A stretch of 64,000 bases of DNA, from NCBI RefSeq assembly GCF_000022565.1, contig NC_012483.1, positions 744,001-808,000 on the forward strand. Direction: 5' to 3'. Positions 1,337 to 58,966 of the stretch are shown here, piece by piece. Every line of letters begins with the position of its first letter. The stretch's first letter is position 1. The position numbers and the translations under genes were made by a program. The notes beneath the pieces are model-generated. The model had not been told where the DNA came from. It ran no database searches and saw only the letters and a program-made list of their open reading frames with translations. Source of the stretch: Acidobacterium capsulatum ATCC 51196 (lineage in GTDB: Bacteria > Acidobacteriota > Terriglobia > Terriglobales > Acidobacteriaceae).

Positions 1337-1420
1337 TATGTGATCGCGATCCGTGGCGGTGCTCCGCACCGGATGTACGTAGTCGCGGTAGGGATACGGC
1401 TTACGCCGTACCCCCCGCAC

Positions 1421-1454
1421 AGATCCGTACGGGCGGATTTCCCGCATACGGCTC
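1421..1454 (-). ncRNA. group II intron domain V catalytic hairpin
   Basis: On the minus strand these 34 bases begin GAGCCGTATGCGG and end CCCGTACGGATCT, the standard length and shape of domain V with the AGC catalytic triad and a GAAA-type loop region. It follows the maturase gene and precedes the domain VI hairpin. The ribozyme core therefore looks intact even though the maturase frame is broken. Confidence 0.85.
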
Positions 1455-1459
1455 TTACC

Positions 1460-2976
1460 TCAGGTGGTGACGCGCAGACGGCGCGAAGGATAAGGACGGC
1501 AGATATGGGCCGGAGGAAGCCATTTGCGGATGAGCCGTTTCATTCGTTCCCACTTGACGCGACCATGCTGGCTTCGCCTGCACAGAGCGCGATGCCAGAG
1601 GTTGCTCACGGTGTAACGAAAATGGGCCAGAGCATGCCGGTTGCCCGGCACTCCGAAGTATCGGATATGCCCGCCCACAACGGACTTCAACCACTTTCCG
1701 ACTTCCGGAACAGGGTCATGCATGCGCCGCCACAAGCCGATCTTCACCTCTTGCAGCTTGGCCTGCATGCGCTTGCGAATCGTCTGCCGAAGCACCATGA
1801 ACCTTCCCTTCTTTGTCTTCCCGCAGATATGCGTGAAGCCGAGGAAGTCGAAGGTCTCCGGCTTGCCCAGACCGGCGCGCTTTCGGTTCTTCGCCGCATG
1901 GCGTCCGAACTCGATCAGCCGCGTCTTCTCCGGGTGCAGCTCCAGTTGGAACTTCTCCATTCGTTCTTTCAGTTCCAACCAGAACCGTTCGGCCTCGTCT
2001 TTGTACTCGAACCCAACCACGATGTGTCCGCATAACGCACCACGATTACATCGCCGTGCGCACGCTTCTTACGCCATGCCTGAACCCAGAGATCGAAGAC
2101 GTAGTGGAGGTAGATATTCGCCAACAGGGGCGATGCACTTCCGCCCTGTGGCGAGCCTGCTTCCACGAAGGTTCGCTTGCCCTTTTCCAGCACGCCCGCG
2201 TTCAGCCATTTCTGGATGAGACGCACAACGCGCCGGTCCGCTATCCGATGCTGGAGGAACCGGACCAGCCATTCATGCGACAGCCTGTCGAAGAAGCTGC
2301 GCACGTCCAGGTCCAGCACCCAGTTCACACGTCGCTCATGGAGTCCACACCACAACGCATCCAGCGCTTTATGCTGGTGCCGCTTTGGACGGAACCCATA
2401 AGAGAAGCCGAGGAAGTCGGTTTCGTAGATTTGATTCAGTACCTCCACCGTCGCTCTCTGAACGAGCTTGTCTTCGAGCGCCGGGACGCCGAGCGGTCGC
2501 TGCCGCCCATCCGCCTTCGGGATGTACACCCTACGCACCGGCTTGGCCCGGTATGCCCCGCGCTTCAGTCTATGGGAGAGATTCTGGAGATTCTCCTCAA
2601 GAGCCTCGCCGTAGTGCCGCCATGTCTCCCCGTCCACACCCGCCGCAGCGTGCCTCTTCAACTGCAAGTAGGCGAACCGCAGGGTGTCGATCCGGTAGAC
2701 ATGATGCATCAGAGCAGTGAACCTTGCATCCTTGTTCGATTTTGCCGTTTGTCGTATCTGTTCCAACTCACTTGGCGCGCTGAGAGACCCCAGCGACGAA
2801 GACCTGTCGCCGGGGACCCCCTTGATCCGGCTCTGAGTCCGGGGCGCGTTTTGTTGGCCCAGATTCCCCTTGGTCAGACCCCTTCCCTCCATCTCCTCCG
2901 CCACCGATACTCTGGCTTTGTTCGGAGACTTCCCCGGTACTATGAGTCTGTCCGACTTCCCGTGTTCGTTCATCAT
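1460..2976 (-). pseudogene. ltrA: group II intron reverse transcriptase/maturase, frameshifted at YADD
   Basis: This reads as an intron-encoded reverse transcriptase and maturase in two frames. The first part (2976 to about 2025) has RT blocks including PKADGRQRPLGVPALEDKLV, LDLDVRSFFDRLSHEWL and the AGSPQGG motif. It then reads VVRYADT and falls out of frame. The second part continues as a normal RT end (VGFEYKDEAERFWLELKER) and a maturase X domain with GGHIRYFGVPGN. One missing base near 2022-2027 converts GACGAC (Asp-Asp) into GACAC, exactly inside the YADD catalytic motif. No HNH endonuclease domain follows. Unless the base loss is a sequencing error, the intron cannot move by its own enzyme. 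Confidence 0.88.
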
Positions 2977-3390
2977 CGGCTCCTGTCCTTAGACTTCCCG
3001 ATGCGTCCCGAGAACGCTGGCCGCTCTCAGGTGAACCCGGGATCTCTCAATTTCCGTGCAAAGTGTGTCCCTACATGCCAGGGTCATAGACCGCGCAGGA
3101 CTCCTGCCAAGCTCGCCATACTGCTTGTCAGGATGTTGCCTTCCGCGTTGTGTCAAGGCGTCGGCGTCCTGAAGTTAGGGATATTTCGCGGCTCAATAGC
3201 CTGGCCTGTAGTTCCTCCTGTCTACGCTTCGTACATGGCCTTACGGCCACATCCGCAAGACTCGGAGCCGGTGTGGCTGGCTAGGCCCTCACCGTACGAC
3301 TCTTGCATTCGCTACACCTTGCCGGTTCCGTGCTTGCGCACGGGATTGACGCTACGACACGTCACCCCCAAAATGGGTTGCGATTGGTAA

Positions 3391-3607: not shown

Positions 3608-4033
3608 ATGAACACTCCCCGCATCCCGAATCCATTGCCGTCTCCAGACTCACCGAAGGGTGAAGCGCGACCGGTTCTTCGTGCCAAAACCATCGCAACC
3701 AGGGTCACGCTGGAAGAACTGGTGGAGGTGGAAACCGCCGCCGAAAGTGCAGGAAAAACCGTGGCCGAATGGCTGCGCGAGCTGGCCCTAAAAGCCGCGC
3801 GGGAGCGTCCGGCAGACCCTGCCGAGTTCCTGCTGGCCGAGGTCGCGGCGCTGCGATACATGCTCCTGAATCTCTTTCATGCGACGGCTCAGGCGAACGC
3901 CGAGGGCAAGTATTTGCTGCCCGATTCGGTGGTCAGAATTCGAGACCAGGCCAATGCGCGGAAGCTGGCGGATGCCCGGAAATTGCTGGCGGAATTTCTG
4001 TCCCAGGAGGGGCCGGACGGGGACAAGCAGTGA
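3608..4033 (+). CDS. MobC-like mobilization accessory protein (ribbon-helix-helix type)
   Basis: A 141-residue protein if the ATG at 3608 is used; a GTG at 3578 would add ten residues. The core RVTLEELVEVETAAESAGKTVAEWLRELAL has the pattern of ribbon-helix-helix relaxosome accessory proteins (a short strand, then two helices with small residues at the turn), followed by a helical tail rich in Ala, Lys and Arg. Such proteins bind oriT and help the relaxase. It overlaps the next gene by five bases, and that gene is a conjugative coupling protein, which supports a transfer role. No database check was possible, so the family name is an inference from pattern and context. Confidence 0.55.
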   Translation: MNTPRIPNPLPSPDSPKGEARPVLRAKTIATRVTLEELVEVETAAESAGKTVAEWLRELALKAARERPADPAEFLLAEVAALRYMLLNLFHATAQANAEGKYLLPDSVVRIRDQANARKLADARKLLAEFLSQEGPDGDKQ

Positions 4034-6011
4034 GCCGTCCTCTTCATTTTCCCAGCCGGGGCAGATGGCTCTTGTGGCTGATTTTGCTCTTCGTTCTGGG
4101 GCCATTTGTGGTGATCGTACCGGCCATGCTCTGGCTCGGCTGGACGATGAACCCAGTCCAGAATTTCTACCTCGGAACCTACGCTGCCAGTTCCACGTTG
4201 AGCATCTATCCCGGTGCCCTGACTACCGTGCGCTACGCCGAAAAGACGGCTCCGGGCAGAAAGCCAGAGCCACTGTTACCGGAAGATGCGGTGAAAGGGG
4301 CGAGTGGCAGTCAGGGTCTCGCACTGAGTCCAAAAGCCCTTGCCGAAGGTTGGCGCGGTGTCATTATTACGCCGCCCGAGAAGGTTCGTGCGAAGGCGTT
4401 GCGAGCATATCTGGCGTCCACGATTTATGACAACGACAGCGCATGGCTGATCTTTCTTCGACCTATCCTCTACCTGACGCTGGCAGTCTTGTTTTTGTAT
4501 GCCCTGTGGCTCTTCTTTGGTCATAGACTTCGCACCAGTTGGAAGCATGAGCAGCGGCATGGGCGACGCACCAAAGGCCCAGAGTTGGCCTCGGCTTTCG
4601 GGGGGCGCAGCGCGAAGACGAACGGCATTCGCTTCCGCCTACGCTTCGAGAATTCGCGTTTGCAGTGGTTGCCGTTTGGTCCAAGCTACCGGATTCCGAA
4701 GCGTCTTGAGGCCAGCCACATTCTGATGATGGGCGACACCGGTTCAGGCAAATCGAACGCCATCCGGCAGCTACTTCGTCAGGTGCGGAAGCGCGGAGAG
4801 ACCGCCATCGTTTATGACCCGGCAATGGACTTTGTGAGCGAGTTCTACTCGCCCGCACGGGGCGATCTGATTCTCAATCCGCTGGACCAGCGTTGTCCTT
4901 ATTGGAGTCTGGGCGAGGAGATCGACCGAGACGAAACAGCGACGACCATCGCCGCTGCGTTCCTGCCGGAAAAGGAGTACGAGAAGGAGTTTTTCACCGA
5001 TGGGCCGCGCCGGATACTGGCCCACTTGCTCAAGCAGCAGCCACAGCCCCGGGACATTCTGAAGATGATGGCCGATCCATCATGGATGGAGGCAAAGGTG
5101 AAAGGAACGCCGCTTGCAGCGCTGCTCGATGCGGGAGCACCGGCGCAGCGGGCGGGTGTGCTGGCGAGCTTAAACATGGTGGCCGACAGCTTTGAACTAT
5201 TGCCAGAGTGGGAGCACACGAGGCCAACCTTTGCGACAGCGAAGTGGTACACGACGCGTAAGCGTTGGGTGTTTCTGACTTCCACTCCCGCCTATCGTGC
5301 GAAGATTCTGCCGTTGCATTCCGTGTGGCTCGATTTATTCATCCTCCGCATGATGGGCTACTGCGAAGACCTCATGGCAAAGCCTGTATGGTTTGTTCTG
5401 GACGAGCTGGCAAGCCTTAATAAACTGCCGCAGCTTCACACAGCCGTTACGGAAAACCGCAAATACGGCAATCCGGTTTGTTGGGTTTTCAGGGACGCAG
5501 CCAGCTTGAAAAACGCTATGGGAAAGACGCCGAGGCCATGCTTTCGCAGCCCGCAACCAAGCTGTTTTTCAAAACCACGGAGCCACGCGCCGCGAAGTGG
5601 ATTTCCGACACCATCGGGGAAATTGAAGTGGAACGATTGAAGGAATCGCGCAGCATGGGGCTGCTAGGAAGTAGGAAATCCTATGCGATGGAGATTGCGA
5701 CCAAGCCGCTTGTGATGGCTTCGGAAATCTCCGGCCTGGAGCCGTTGCACGGCTTCATCAAGCAGGAAAACAAAGCTGTTCCGGTTCACTTTCGGTTCGC
5801 AAGGAAACACGGCGGACAGCCGGAGTTTATTGAACGCAAGCTGACGGAGATTGCGCCCAGGTCGTCACCGCCGAAGACCACAGCTCGCGCAGAGCAACCC
5901 AGGACGCCAGCAGCAGCGCAGGCCACGCTCCCACTTTTCGATGTGTCCGCAGGCCAACCGGACAAAGCGAAAGAGGCGTTTGTGTGGGATGAATCCAAAG
6001 AGCGTGAATGA
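4029..6011 (+). pseudogene. type IV coupling protein (TraD/TrwB/VirD4-like), frameshifted
   Basis: The gene appears to start at GTG 4029, overlapping the MobC-like gene. It encodes two N-terminal membrane segments (about residues 12-35 and 137-157), then a cytoplasmic ATPase with Walker A GDTGSGKSN (about residue 235) and a Walker B-like WFVLDELASL. These are hallmarks of TraD/TrwB-type DNA pumps that link a relaxosome to a type IV secretion channel. At about 5475-5485 the frame shifts: NPVCWVFRD in one frame should continue as LGFQGRSQLEKRYG in another, consistent with loss of one base. The distal part (to 6011) is otherwise coding and matches the expected C-terminus. The product is probably truncated at about 500 residues unless the shift is a sequencing error. 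Confidence 0.82.
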
Positions 6012-52895: not shown

Positions 52896-52910
52896 CGTAC
52901 CAGCGCGCCC

Positions 52911-54086
52911 TCAGCGCTGCGCGGCTTCCACGACGCCGACGCGGGAATCGGCGCAGCCATAGTAGAGAAACCATCGGTGATGAAAGAAGACAAGCCCCTC
53001 GGCAAAGGTGGTGCCGGCTCCGTATTGGCCCGTCTTTTCGTACGGGCGCTCCGGTTTCAGGAAGGGTTCCGTGGAGCGCGCCAGCAGACGGCCCGGATTG
53101 GATGTCTGAAACAGAGCCTGCCCCGTCGAATATGCGCCCGAGCCGAGTGCGGAATCTCCATGCTGCGATGCATTTTTACCGTTGTAGAAGAGGACGATGC
53201 CCTTCGGCGTGAGCAGCGGCGGGGGGCCTACCTCGGGAAATCCGCTGTCGAAGTGCCCCGGGCGGTGCTGCAGCAACACCAGTGCGTCGCCTTGCGGATT
53301 CATGACGGGCGTCCAGTGAATGAGGTCGGGCGACCAGGCGAGATGGATGATCTTTTCTCCCCAATACATCCAATACCGGCCATGGATCTTTGCGGCGACG
53401 AGGCGACCGTGGTCGAGCCGGGTCACGATTCCTCCCGATTTGTAACTCTCGAAGGCAGGGCCCAGACGGTGAGGAAAGATGGGGCCGTATTTGGTCCAGT
53501 GGCGCAGGTCGTGTGAGGTGGCAAGACCAATGTCAGTCACCTTGCGGTTCCACTGGGTGTAGGTGAGCACATACAGGCCGCCGGGAGCCTCCACGATGCG
53601 CGGGTCTTCCACACCGCCGGGCCACTCGCGGCTCTTCTGCGCATCATTGGCAGGATAAAAGACCGGCTCCGGATCGCGCGTAAAGTGGATGCCGTCGCGG
53701 CTCCAGGCGAGCCCCAGGCGCGAGGTGTGGCCGCCGATGGCCTGCAGGCCAGTGTCGTCTTCTGCACGGTAGAGGATATAGACTTTGCCGTGGCGCACGA
53801 CGGCCGCCGGATTGAAGGTGGCGTTTGCCTCCCAATGCACCATCTGTCTTCGGATGGGATCGCGAAAAACGGCGCTGGGATCAGGAGTAAGAATCGGCGC
53901 ATCGACAGGACGGCGCCATGAACCGGCCTGCAACCTGGTCCGAGGCCCGATCTGCCAACCCGACGGTGCGCGCTTCGTGTCCCGCTGCGCCAGCACGGGG
54001 GCGAGCAGCACCAAGGCCAGGAAGATTCCACACGCCCACGCGATCGCCTGCCTGATTTGCTCCCGTCTCAGCCCCCACACGTCCAT
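52911..54086 (-). CDS. secreted GH130-like beta-mannoside phosphorylase family protein
   Basis: A 391-residue protein starting at ATG 54086 with a signal peptide (MDVWGLRREQIRQAIAWACG... ending VLLAPVLAQ). The five-bladed propeller pattern of GH130/GH43-like enzymes is seen: LGLAWSRDGIHFTRDPEPVF, GGVEDPRIVEAPGG with the putative catalytic Asp, and GIVLFYNGKNAS. Relatives cleave or phosphorolyse beta-1,2/1,4-mannosides. Secreted location is unusual for a phosphorylase, so hydrolysis may be more likely. It lies convergent to the secretin gene. Confidence 0.8.
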   Translation of the reverse strand: MDVWGLRREQIRQAIAWACGIFLALVLLAPVLAQRDTKRAPSGWQIGPRTRLQAGSWRRPVDAPILTPDPSAVFRDPIRRQMVHWEANATFNPAAVVRHGKVYILYRAEDDTGLQAIGGHTSRLGLAWSRDGIHFTRDPEPVFYPANDAQKSREWPGGVEDPRIVEAPGGLYVLTYTQWNRKVTDIGLATSHDLRHWTKYGPIFPHRLGPAFESYKSGGIVTRLDHGRLVAAKIHGRYWMYWGEKIIHLAWSPDLIHWTPVMNPQGDALVLLQHRPGHFDSGFPEVGPPPLLTPKGIVLFYNGKNASQHGDSALGSGAYSTGQALFQTSNPGRLLARSTEPFLKPERPYEKTGQYGAGTTFAEGLVFFHHRWFLYYGCADSRVGVVEAAQR

Positions 54087-54630
54087 TCGCCCTCCTTTTG
54101 CCGGCCGCTTCTGATATCGCCACCATGCCACGATAGCAGCCGGGAGCGGAATGGTGAAGGCAGAGAAATACCCGCCTTCAGCGTGGCCCCGGGCTTTGTC
54201 GAGAAACAATTGCGATAGAAAGAAGCACTATCAAGGCATCTTTCTGGCCGCTCAATGCGCCCTGCGCGGGCAGGAACGTCCACGCTGATGGGTGCTCTCG
54301 CCGCCATCCATCAGGGCATGGTGTGTTGTCGCCCTGGAGCGTACCGGCATCTGCACAATTCAATTATTCGGCCGTCGACGACTGAGCCGCCTGCGCGCTC
54401 AGGATGCTCCCTGGTGGCCGCCTCCCCGATTGAATCTTCCGGAAGATGAGAGCACAGGGGGCCTCTCCGCCCTCCGTTTACTCCGCATAAACACAAGATG
54501 GCGTCCCTTTATAAATGCGCACAGGGTTGTATACCCATTTTGGGATATTTATTTACCCGATCTCAGGGATGGGATTATTAGAAGAAATTCAGCATTTTGA
54601 TAGTAGAGAACATTTACAGGAGATTTGGAC
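54087..54630. other. intergenic stretch before a terminator
   Basis: About 545 bases with no convincing gene. A weak promoter-like pair, TTGTAT and TATTTA 17 bases apart, lies at about 54528-54556, followed by about 120 bases to the strong terminator at 54631-54676, so a short untranslated transcript is possible. Confidence 0.35.
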
Positions 54631-54676
54631 AGACCGCCATCAGCGAGTCACCCTCCATGAGGGCGGTCTTTTTTTT
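54631..54676 (+). terminator. strong intrinsic terminator, possible attenuator or small-RNA end
   Basis: AGACCGCC (54631-54638) pairs perfectly with GGCGGTCT (54662-54669), followed by a run of T to 54676. The loop holds a second, overlapping hairpin CCCTC-CAT-GAGGG (54651-54663) that competes with the terminator's right arm. No protein gene ends just upstream, and the zinc-ribbon gene begins 110 bases later. Confidence 0.75.
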
Positions 54677-54786
54677 GAGGGACGGGCAAAAAGATGCGGC
54701 AACAGACCGCTTCGCTCCTCAGTTAATGCATTTCGATCGACTTGTTGCTCTACCTATCTGCCCTCTTGTTTTGCTGGAGATAATTA

Positions 54787-54972
54787 ATGCCCCAAAAGCA
54801 TCCCGTTTGCCCAACCTGTCTCCGAAGGGATAGCGTTCATCGCATTCCCCGGCGGGGGTTAGCGGCGGCAGCGGCGAAACTGATCCGGAAGTATCCGTGG
54901 TTCTGCGAGATCTGCTACCAGAGATTCTGGGGCGTGCGCGAATATCACAGAAGCAGCACAGTGAATAGCTAA
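54787..54972 (+). CDS. mini zinc-ribbon protein
   Basis: A 61-residue protein with two Cys pairs, HPVCPTCLRRDS and WFCEICYQRFWG, separated by a basic Arg/Ala-rich helix (RIPRRGLAAAAAKLIRKYPW). This spacing matches a small treble-clef or zinc-ribbon unit. A GGAGA lies before the start. The family is not named here, but the conserved motif order makes a real gene likely. It may bind RNA, DNA or a protein partner; it precedes the EAL-kinase gene by 213 bases in the same direction. Confidence 0.65.
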   Translation: MPQKHPVCPTCLRRDSVHRIPRRGLAAAAAKLIRKYPWFCEICYQRFWGVREYHRSSTVNS

Positions 54973-55185
54973 ACGGAAGCTCTCTCCCCGCGAGCCTCTT
55001 TGCTCTTGAAGAAAAATAGCCACTAGCGCCATTGCCATATGCATTGGACTGGATGGACAGTCTGCCGGACGAAAGCCATGCTTTTCCATAAAGCGAGATC
55101 TCTCTCATTCTGATCCTGCTTGTGGCGACTGCTCTTCCGCGGGATGAAGCGATTTCATAGACGATCAACAGGGCCGTGCATCGTT

Positions 55186-56925
55186 ATGGCGACTATAAGC
55201 ACATCAAGACTGATCCTAGCCTTGCAATCCGGAGAGATTGTTCCCTATTTTCAGCCGCAGATCGAGCTTAAGACCGGGAGCCTGTCAGGCTTTGAAGTGC
55301 TCGCTCGCTGGCTTCATCCAGAGCTCGGAATTTTGCTGCCGGCTGAATTCATTCCGTTAGCACAGGGCGCTAATCTTTTGCCGGATGTCACGCATGAGGT
55401 TCTAGGCCAGGCGACCGTCGCAATTGCGGCGTTTTGTCCCATGCCTCTGCGGCTTTCAATCAATATTTCAGCCGATGAACTCCTTGATCCAGAGTTGTGC
55501 GAACGATTGAGCCTCATTGCAGAATGCTCGGGATTTCCAATCTCATGCCTCACTCTTGAACTGACGGAATCGACCCGGATTGAAAATACAGCATTGGCAC
55601 GAGCCACCGTTCACCGTATCCGCCGCAGCGGATTTCGTCTTTCGCTCGATGATTTCGGTAAGGGTTATGCGGGTTTGCAGCACCTTCACGAGATTCCTTT
55701 TGACGAACTGAAGATCGACATGAGGTTCGTCCAGTGCATATCGGAATATCAAAGGTCTGAAGATTTCATCGCCGGCGTGATTGCGTTGGGAGAAGCTCTT
55801 GGAATCCACACGGTTGCCGAAGGGATTGAGACGCATATCCAGGCGAATCTGCTCACGAGCCTGCAATGCGAACTCGGACAAGGATTTCTTTTTGGTGCTC
55901 CTGTTCCGGCATCATCTATTCCTGCCTTGATGATGGAGAGAACTGCACGCAAAGAGAACGTCATATACTGCGCGAACGCAGGACAATATCGATTTGAAAT
56001 TGCTCGCGGGAAACAACGCGACTCTCCGTACAGCGATTGCGCCACGGCAGAATTACGTCATTCAGATCAGCTTCCGCACTACTTGGAATATCCTCGTTCT
56101 AAACCTCCACACACAGATTTCGCGGGGAACTCCCAAATGTCGCTCCCTCCTTTATCCATCAGAAGATCATTTGCTCCGCCGCCACAAGCTCAAAAGCAAA
56201 GAGCAGAGATCGCGGCAGTACCTCCATCCGTCGCAACGGGGAACAGCACTGGTCCCAAAGAAGAAAAGACGCTTCAGAATTGGAGTAGTCAACTTTTAAA
56301 AGCGCAAGAGGAAGAACGACGCCGCATCGCACGAGAGTTGCATGATTCGGTGCTTCAGTTGCATGCATTGCTCTCTCTCAATCTCGACAAAATATCTTCA
56401 GAATCCTTAGACCGGACCAGCAGAAATGCCCTGGAAGACACAAAGGCGCTCGTTACGATTTGCTCAGAAGAACTGAGGACGATCAGCTACCTGTTGCATC
56501 CTCCCTTCATCGAAGACCTGGGGCTGGAGTCGGCACTCCGGATCTTTGTGGAAGGGCTGACGCGAAGAACTGACATCGACATCAGAGTTCAAATTGCCAC
56601 GCCACTTCCAAGATTCGACTCTGACCTTGAATTAGCACTTTTCCGTGTTGTTCAGGAGTCTCTCTCCAACATTCTGCGGCACTCCGGAAGTTCCTGGGCT
56701 GAGATACGCATCCAGATTGCGGCAGATCTCGTGCTCGAGGTGGAAGATCACGGCAAGGGTCTACCCGCAACTTTTTATGATCAGAGCCAGTCTCATGCAC
56801 ACATGGGAGTGGGAATAGCGGGGATGCGGGAACGAATTCGCCCATTTGGAGGGACCATCGAGCTGCTTCCCGCCAATCCAGGCCTACTCGTGCGAGCGGT
56901 TGTGCCCAAGGTAGCACCTGCATGA
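55186..56925 (+). CDS. EAL phosphodiesterase-histidine kinase fusion
   Basis: A 579-residue cytoplasmic protein starting at ATG 55186. Residues 5-250 form an EAL domain with the metal and catalytic set complete: EVL (Glu37, an EAL variant), SINIS, ELTES, LDDFGKGYAGL, ELKID and AEGIET. A Pro/Ser-rich linker (about 265-360) is followed by a NarX/DesK-type kinase: HisKA_3 with His386 in RRIARELHDSVLQ, N box VVQESLSNILRHSGSS, G1 VEDHGKGLP, and G2 GVGIAGMRERI. No membrane or known sensor segment is present. Its stop overlaps the regulator gene, so c-di-GMP turnover and phosphorelay are joined in one polypeptide. Confidence 0.92.
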   Translation: MATISTSRLILALQSGEIVPYFQPQIELKTGSLSGFEVLARWLHPELGILLPAEFIPLAQGANLLPDVTHEVLGQATVAIAAFCPMPLRLSINISADELLDPELCERLSLIAECSGFPISCLTLELTESTRIENTALARATVHRIRRSGFRLSLDDFGKGYAGLQHLHEIPFDELKIDMRFVQCISEYQRSEDFIAGVIALGEALGIHTVAEGIETHIQANLLTSLQCELGQGFLFGAPVPASSIPALMMERTARKENVIYCANAGQYRFEIARGKQRDSPYSDCATAELRHSDQLPHYLEYPRSKPPHTDFAGNSQMSLPPLSIRRSFAPPPQAQKQRAEIAAVPPSVATGNSTGPKEEKTLQNWSSQLLKAQEEERRRIARELHDSVLQLHALLSLNLDKISSESLDRTSRNALEDTKALVTICSEELRTISYLLHPPFIEDLGLESALRIFVEGLTRRTDIDIRVQIATPLPRFDSDLELALFRVVQESLSNILRHSGSSWAEIRIQIAADLVLEVEDHGKGLPATFYDQSQSHAHMGVGIAGMRERIRPFGGTIELLPANPGLLVRAVVPKVAPA

Positions 56926-57578
56926 TGAAGGGAGTGAATGCTTTAATTGCCGACGATCACATGCTGCTCCGCGCAGGCGTCAGGGATGCCATCGAGCGAA
57001 ATGGCGGAATCGTATGCGATGAAGCGACGACAGGACGGGAAGCTTTCGATAAAGCGATCCTCTACAAGCCAACTCTCGTTGTGATCGATGTCACTATGCC
57101 GGAACTCAATGGCATCGAAGCTACCCGCCGGATCCTGAATGCGCTGCCAACCGTGAAGGTCATTATCCTGACCCAACATCAGAGCAATGAACTGGTTCGA
57201 AGTGCGGTCGAGGCCGGTGCCCGTGGCTATCTACTCAAGACCGATACCGGTCAAATCCTGTTACAGGCCATTCAATCAGTAATGGCGGGGGGAACCTTTT
57301 TCTCTCCTGTAATCACGGACGTTGTGCTGCAGTCGCTGGCGCGTTCTGTTCACCTGACGGGTCCCGGCATTGTCTATAAAGAAAGACTGACTCCTCGCGA
57401 AGGCGAGGTGCTGCAGCTTCTAGCCGAGGGAAAATCCACGAAAGAAGCGGCATCCGTACTGGGCACCAGTACTTTCACTGTCGAAACACAACGCAAAAAT
57501 GTGATGCGCAAACTGCGGCTAAGAAATGTGAGCGATCTGGTTCGCTACGCCGTGCGAAATCACATGATTGATGCTTGA
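56922..57578 (+). CDS. NarL/LuxR-family response regulator
   Basis: A 218-residue regulator with receiver Asp56 (LVVIDVTMPELNG), ADDH near the start, and a C-terminal LuxR HTH (LTPREGEVLQLLAEGKSTKE; STFTVETQRKNVMRKL). Its ATG overlaps the kinase stop (ATGA), and HisKA_3 kinases pair with exactly this class, so it is almost surely the partner of the EAL-kinase fusion. A terminator at 57608-57633 ends the operon. Confidence 0.93.
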   Translation: MMKGVNALIADDHMLLRAGVRDAIERNGGIVCDEATTGREAFDKAILYKPTLVVIDVTMPELNGIEATRRILNALPTVKVIILTQHQSNELVRSAVEAGARGYLLKTDTGQILLQAIQSVMAGGTFFSPVITDVVLQSLARSVHLTGPGIVYKERLTPREGEVLQLLAEGKSTKEAASVLGTSTFTVETQRKNVMRKLRLRNVSDLVRYAVRNHMIDA

Positions 57579-57607
57579 GACGGCTTATCTGACATTGCAA
57601 GCAAAGC

Positions 57608-57633
57608 AAAACCCCTCCGGTTGGAGGGGTTTT
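57608..57633 (+). terminator. bidirectional terminator between response regulator and ino1-like gene
   Basis: AAAACCCCTCC (57608-57618) and GGAGGGGTTTT (57623-57633) form an 11-bp stem with a 4-base loop and A/T flanks, serving both convergent genes. Confidence 0.88.
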
Positions 57634-57655
57634 GGTCTTTCACGGAAACTGAACC

Positions 57656-58966
<1,311 letters not shown>

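Follow-up and report, generated by a model that had tools for sequence, protein, structure and literature searches.

An intact, soluble HisKA_3 histidine kinase with an acidobacterial EAL domain in the sensor position is encoded in Acidobacterium capsulatum ATCC 51196, where its gene is followed directly by that of a NarL-type response regulator. We propose, with a probability of about 0.4, that the EAL domain is the c-di-GMP-responsive input of this kinase. The EAL domain would bind c-di-GMP and hydrolyze it weakly, EAL pairing dependent on the ligand would shift the tethered HisKA_3 dimer between kinase and phosphatase activity, and the level of c-di-GMP would thereby set phosphorylation of the regulator. 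The features of the locus are listed by their positions in the window, the whole 64,000-nucleotide stretch of contig NC_012483.1 that was analyzed.

55186..56925, +: EAL-HisKA_3-HATPase_c protein, a single open frame of 579 aa plus stop
55144, +: in-frame ATG, a possible earlier start of the EAL-kinase gene
55219..55902, +: EAL domain, residues 12-239 (Pfam PF00563; Foldseek)
55294..55296, +: Glu37 of the EAL signature (E-V-L-A-R-W), Glu in 105/105 compared EAL domains
55648..55677, +: loop 6, residues 155-164, DDFGKGYAGL (from the 105-EAL comparison)
55936..56256, +: linker, residues 251-357, without homologue, with atypical codon use, residues 257-331 predicted disordered
56314..56505, +: HisKA_3 dimerization domain, residues 377-440, with H386 and HDxxxQ (Pfam PF07730)
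56341-56343, +: His386 codon
56629..56865, +: HATPase_c domain, residues 482-560 (Pfam PF02518)
56922..57578, +: NarL/FixJ-type response regulator, 218 aa, with REC (D56) and GerE HTH
57607..57634, strandless: terminator-like hairpin of 12 pairs with T tails, 3′ of the regulator, between convergent genes

The first-pass annotation had placed an EAL domain and a HisKA_3 kinase in one soluble protein with a NarL-type regulator overlapping downstream, and the profile searches bear this out. The EAL domain matches PF00563 at 207.7 bits (2e-61) against a curated cut-off of 31.3, and HATPase_c (40.7 bits) and HisKA_3 (36.4 bits) also exceed their curated Pfam cut-offs. The protein is soluble and lacks a membrane helix, since its highest 19-residue Kyte-Doolittle mean is 1.44. 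Pfam recognized no conventional sensor besides the EAL domain; such a sensor is usual for HisKA_3 kinases, although not strictly required. The kinase stop codon TGA (56923-56925) and the regulator start codon ATG (56922-56924) overlap by 4 bp, and the regulator scores 82.3 bits for Response_reg and 58.2 bits for GerE. The two genes are probably co-transcribed, and the strong hairpin downstream is probably a bidirectional terminator. No c-di-GMP riboswitch or other known RNA was matched by Rfam within 54200-57700. Upstream of the EAL-kinase gene, a 61-aa ORF (54787-54972, +) contains two CxxC pairs (CPTC and CEIC) and has no significant Pfam match. Elsewhere in the window lies a group II intron (1382-3303, −) with Rfam D1-D4 and D5/6 matches, whose reverse transcriptase ORF (1969-2976) covers the RVT_1 profile partially and may be split or truncated. 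Adjoining it is a gene for a TrwB-type coupling-protein ATPase (3769-5640, +), possibly a conjugative-element remnant.

The signalling modules look competent from their residues. In a comparison with 38 relatives, the phospho-acceptor H386 is shared by 38/38, and D387 and Q391 by 37/38 each, which completes HDxxxQ, the motif for phosphatase activity in kinases of the HisKA_3 type. N495, D521, G523 and G543 of HATPase_c are common to all compared proteins, and G525 matches in 37 or 38 of the 38. With both profiles above cut-off, a phospho-acceptor His and N, G1 and G2 boxes, the kinase belongs to the NarX/UhpB/DesK-type HisKA_3 group; the regulator, with a GerE HTH and a REC phospho-acceptor (D56 in VIDVTMP), is of the NarL/FixJ type. 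The positions given earlier for Glu37 and His386 proved correct.

The chemistry of the EAL domain is less straightforward. Aligned against 105 other EAL domains, its metal, substrate and catalytic residues are all at consensus (E37, R41, N93, E125, E128, D155, D156, K176, E212, E215 and Q232); the c-di-GMP ligand residues are thus present in the alignment, and binding itself is predicted. The fold is supported by Foldseek, with an E value of 8e-23 to the EAL domain of PdeA and further matches to those of MorA, BifA and RocR. Loop 6, however, reads DDFGKGYAGL instead of DDFG(T/S)GYSSL: K159 occurs in 0/105, A162 in 2/105 and G163 in 2/105 of the other EAL domains. The claim that the phosphodiesterase signature set is complete therefore stands for the catalytic residues, but not for loop 6, which deviates at K159, A162 and G163. 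The canonical loop 6 motif is DFG(T/A/S)G(Y/F)SS (PMC2994820, PMC7290235), and in PMC7290235, which cites Rao et al. (2009), loop 6 [DFG(T/A)GYSS] is called essential for EAL dimerization and for binding of Mg2+ and c-di-GMP. The regulator RocR3 has changes both at loop 6 and at a single catalytic position, and its phosphodiesterase activity was judged possibly compromised (PMC12051241). Given this role of loop 6 and the RocR3 case, the activity of the present EAL domain is uncertain; full phosphodiesterase activity is doubtful because loop 6 is not canonical, and the domain may be fully active, slow, or capable of binding only. A supply of ligand can be expected, since the source genome encodes 16 GGDEF domains, alongside 7 EAL domains, and the host should thus make c-di-GMP.

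Both halves of the protein have recognizable acidobacterial relatives. The closest EAL domains (44-47% identity) are found in Acidobacteriaceae proteins that carry an N-terminal EAL followed by two or three PAS domains, two of them in the same genome. In a FastTree phylogeny, the EAL domain groups with all 22 acidobacterial N-terminal EALs with a support of 0.69, and the next wider groups have 0.87-0.93; its branch is long (0.76 vs a median of 0.25). It thus matches the subgroup of the EAL-PAS proteins, but no PAS follows the EAL here. Proteins in which an N-terminal EAL precedes between one and three PAS domains, with no other recognized output domain, are widespread in Acidobacteriaceae, an uncommon order in its own right (loci L111, L113, L118, L119, L120, L122, L199 and L004). 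The closest kinase/regulator pairs are adjacent genes in other Acidobacteriota, with identities of 41-46% for the kinase and 45-53% for the regulator; their sensors occupy the same slot and comprise PAS, MASE1-GAF, CHASE3-PAS or MEDS, with EAL in none of those examined. An EAL of the EAL-PAS type joined to a common pair with variable sensors looks like a standard two-component pair whose sensor was exchanged for an EAL domain.

This combination was met once among the genomes searched. In the source genome, a single contig of 4,127,356 bp, 7 EAL and 7 HisKA_3 domains were found, which overlap in this protein only. The first-pass annotation had remarked that c-di-GMP enzymes are usually joined to GGDEF or sensor domains. 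No orthologue or second EAL+HisKA_3 frame was among the domain-level matches listed from 398 genomes of the family and 396 of the phylum, two samples that overlap; distant fusions beyond Acidobacteriota may exist. Likewise, no orthologue was among the matches listed from 61 relatives, no other EAL+HisKA_3 fusion occurs in the ORFs of the loci used for the EAL tree, and no place covering 80% of the query was found among the best 5000 plasmid records. A search of genome contigs gave EAL-side matches only among the 80 loci listed, and no described EAL-HisKA_3 kinase was found in open-licence papers. The surrounding gene order (purC, cvpA, HAD hydrolase, secretin, inositol-phosphate synthase) is kept in two congeneric genomes. 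Between secretin and synthase, one congener has 66 bp (L195 11227-11292) and the other about 2.7 kb of unrelated inserted DNA encoding a Methyltransf_24 protein and others (L196 8596-11281). Here the gap (window 52896-57655) is taken up by a gene of the GH130 family together with the EAL-kinase and regulator genes. The EAL segment has a GC3 of 0.52, the linker 0.44, the kinase 0.53 and the regulator 0.56, compared with 0.73-0.83 in neighboring genes. The variable gap content and the low GC3 together point to a species-specific acquisition.

The junction of EAL and kinase consists of about 107 residues without homologue. The linker has no Pfam match, and its DNA matches nothing but itself in 21 relatives; a remnant of a PAS or other domain, or a copy from elsewhere, was rejected on these results. 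Its codon use is worse than expected from its amino acids (frame 0, p 0.009) and resembles non-coding DNA, whereas the EAL, kinase and regulator segments are clearly coding. The +1 frame of the linker is open, with codon scores somewhat better than those of frame 0, and its peptide matched no Pfam family. A frameshift or mis-joined gene was also considered and rejected: an open +1 frame arose by chance in 15% of synonymous simulations that kept the protein fixed, and its score was not significant (p 0.09), unlike the poor codon use of frame 0. In an AlphaFold2 model of the monomer, folded with a balanced 12+12 sequence set (mean pLDDT 78.5, pTM 0.51), the EAL barrel is confident and the DHp and CA folds are mostly so, whereas about 75 linker residues (257-331), between the EAL and the signalling helix, have pLDDT below 50 and are predicted to be disordered. 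A rigid, rod-like relay from EAL to DHp is unlikely in view of this predicted disorder, so coupling, if any, would go through ligand-dependent EAL pairing or contact through the tether.

The EAL domain is plausible as an input rather than an output because it sits in the sensor slot, no other sensor accompanies it and its loop 6 is altered. Yet since all catalytic residues remain, it may simply be an enzyme. Such a dual-output protein would have an active EAL phosphodiesterase, either set by the kinase or independent of it, that lowers c-di-GMP while the regulator changes transcription. The conserved metal and catalytic residues would fit this arrangement, as would the best structural matches, phosphodiesterases of the EAL type that include PdeA and MorA, and the EAL paralogues of the genome, which score as typical EAL domains. 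It would, however, leave the kinase without a recognizable input domain and place the EAL at the N-terminus, where kinases carry sensors, and the altered loop 6 also argues against it; we consider it somewhat unlikely. Between enzyme and sensor lies the idea that a catalytically competent EAL gates its own kinase, with c-di-GMP binding switching the kinase and slow hydrolysis resetting it. This is unlikely, but if true, the sensor would erase its own signal and second-messenger level would pass directly into a transcriptional phosphorelay.

Two further explanations appear quite improbable, to about the same degree. One is that c-di-GMP binding or partner contacts of the EAL place the kinase within the cell and leave catalysis unchanged. 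The long tether predicted to be disordered would suit such recruitment, and SgmT sets a precedent in which c-di-GMP sequesters a kinase with phosphorylation unaltered (PMC3509222), although the present protein, unlike SgmT, has no separate sensor domain. The other is a recent chimera that does little: a gene of one species, either foreign or newly joined, that is not yet selected as a unit. The gene is indeed a singleton among the matches listed in the genomes searched, in a species-specific insertion between the secretin and inositol-phosphate synthase genes. Its low GC3 (0.44-0.53 against 0.73-0.83 in neighbors), linker codons like those of non-coding DNA and long EAL branch agree with such an origin. 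Against this, the catalytic and phosphorylation motifs of EAL, DHp, CA and REC are all intact despite long divergence, and the codon use of EAL, kinase and regulator is clearly that of coding sequence. Some of these observations would also count against the reading of the EAL as a c-di-GMP input: selection for the pairing would have no orthologue behind it among the matches listed, the intact catalytic residues may denote plain phosphodiesterase function, the predicted disorder of residues 257-331 makes a rigid relay unlikely, and SgmT, by analogy, binds c-di-GMP with no effect on its kinase (PMC3509222).

The c-di-GMP input reading, if right, would matter for the direction of signalling. Pathways of c-di-GMP and two-component systems usually meet through response regulators that bear EAL or GGDEF domains, such that c-di-GMP is under the control of phosphorylation. 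This protein has the opposite order, and an EAL at the sensor end of a kinase would let c-di-GMP control phosphorylation. The EAL-kinase may be a lone evolutionary experiment that wired c-di-GMP straight into a two-component system, and with its regulator it offers a compact, soluble two-gene test case, of a size that suits purification and assay, for the idea that a kinase can take its input from a catalytic EAL. It looks like a chimera of a single species, which limits what it says about bacteria at large.

Several known systems share parts of this architecture. The EAL phosphodiesterases RocR, PdeA and MorA have the fold and all catalytic residues in common with this EAL, but loop 6 is altered here and the fusion partner is a kinase rather than REC, GGDEF or PAS. 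The EAL-PAS proteins of Acidobacteriaceae (for example L199, from this genome, and L111, L113, L119 and L122) have an N-terminal EAL of the same subgroup (44-47%) but differ in having two or three PAS domains, no kinase and the canonical loop 6 DDFGTGYSSL. The HisKA_3 and NarL-type pairs of Acidobacteriota (for example L186, L188, L189 and L193) show the same gene order as here, with 43-46% identity in the kinase core and 45-53% in the regulator, but with PAS, MASE1-GAF, CHASE3-PAS or MEDS sensors and not EAL among those examined. Kinases that bind c-di-GMP are also on record: a review lists CckA of Caulobacter, in which c-di-GMP inhibits kinase and stimulates phosphatase activity, and PdtaS of Mycobacterium (PMC10519070). 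Neither is listed with an EAL; PdtaS is given a GAF domain as its binding region, and none is named for CckA (PMC10519070). The nearest characterized analogue is SgmT of Myxococcus xanthus, likewise a soluble histidine kinase that carries a domain of the c-di-GMP turnover type and is paired with a DNA-binding regulator. Its GGDEF domain binds c-di-GMP and sequesters the protein, while autophosphorylation and transfer are unchanged by c-di-GMP in vitro (PMC3509222). SgmT has the order GAF-HK-REC-GGDEF, with a GAF sensor and a degenerate C-terminal GGDEF with an I-site, whereas the order here is EAL-HisKA_3-HATPase_c: the sole input candidate is an EAL at the N-terminus, complete in its catalytic residues, on a HisKA_3 kinase whose NarL-type regulator is encoded next to it.
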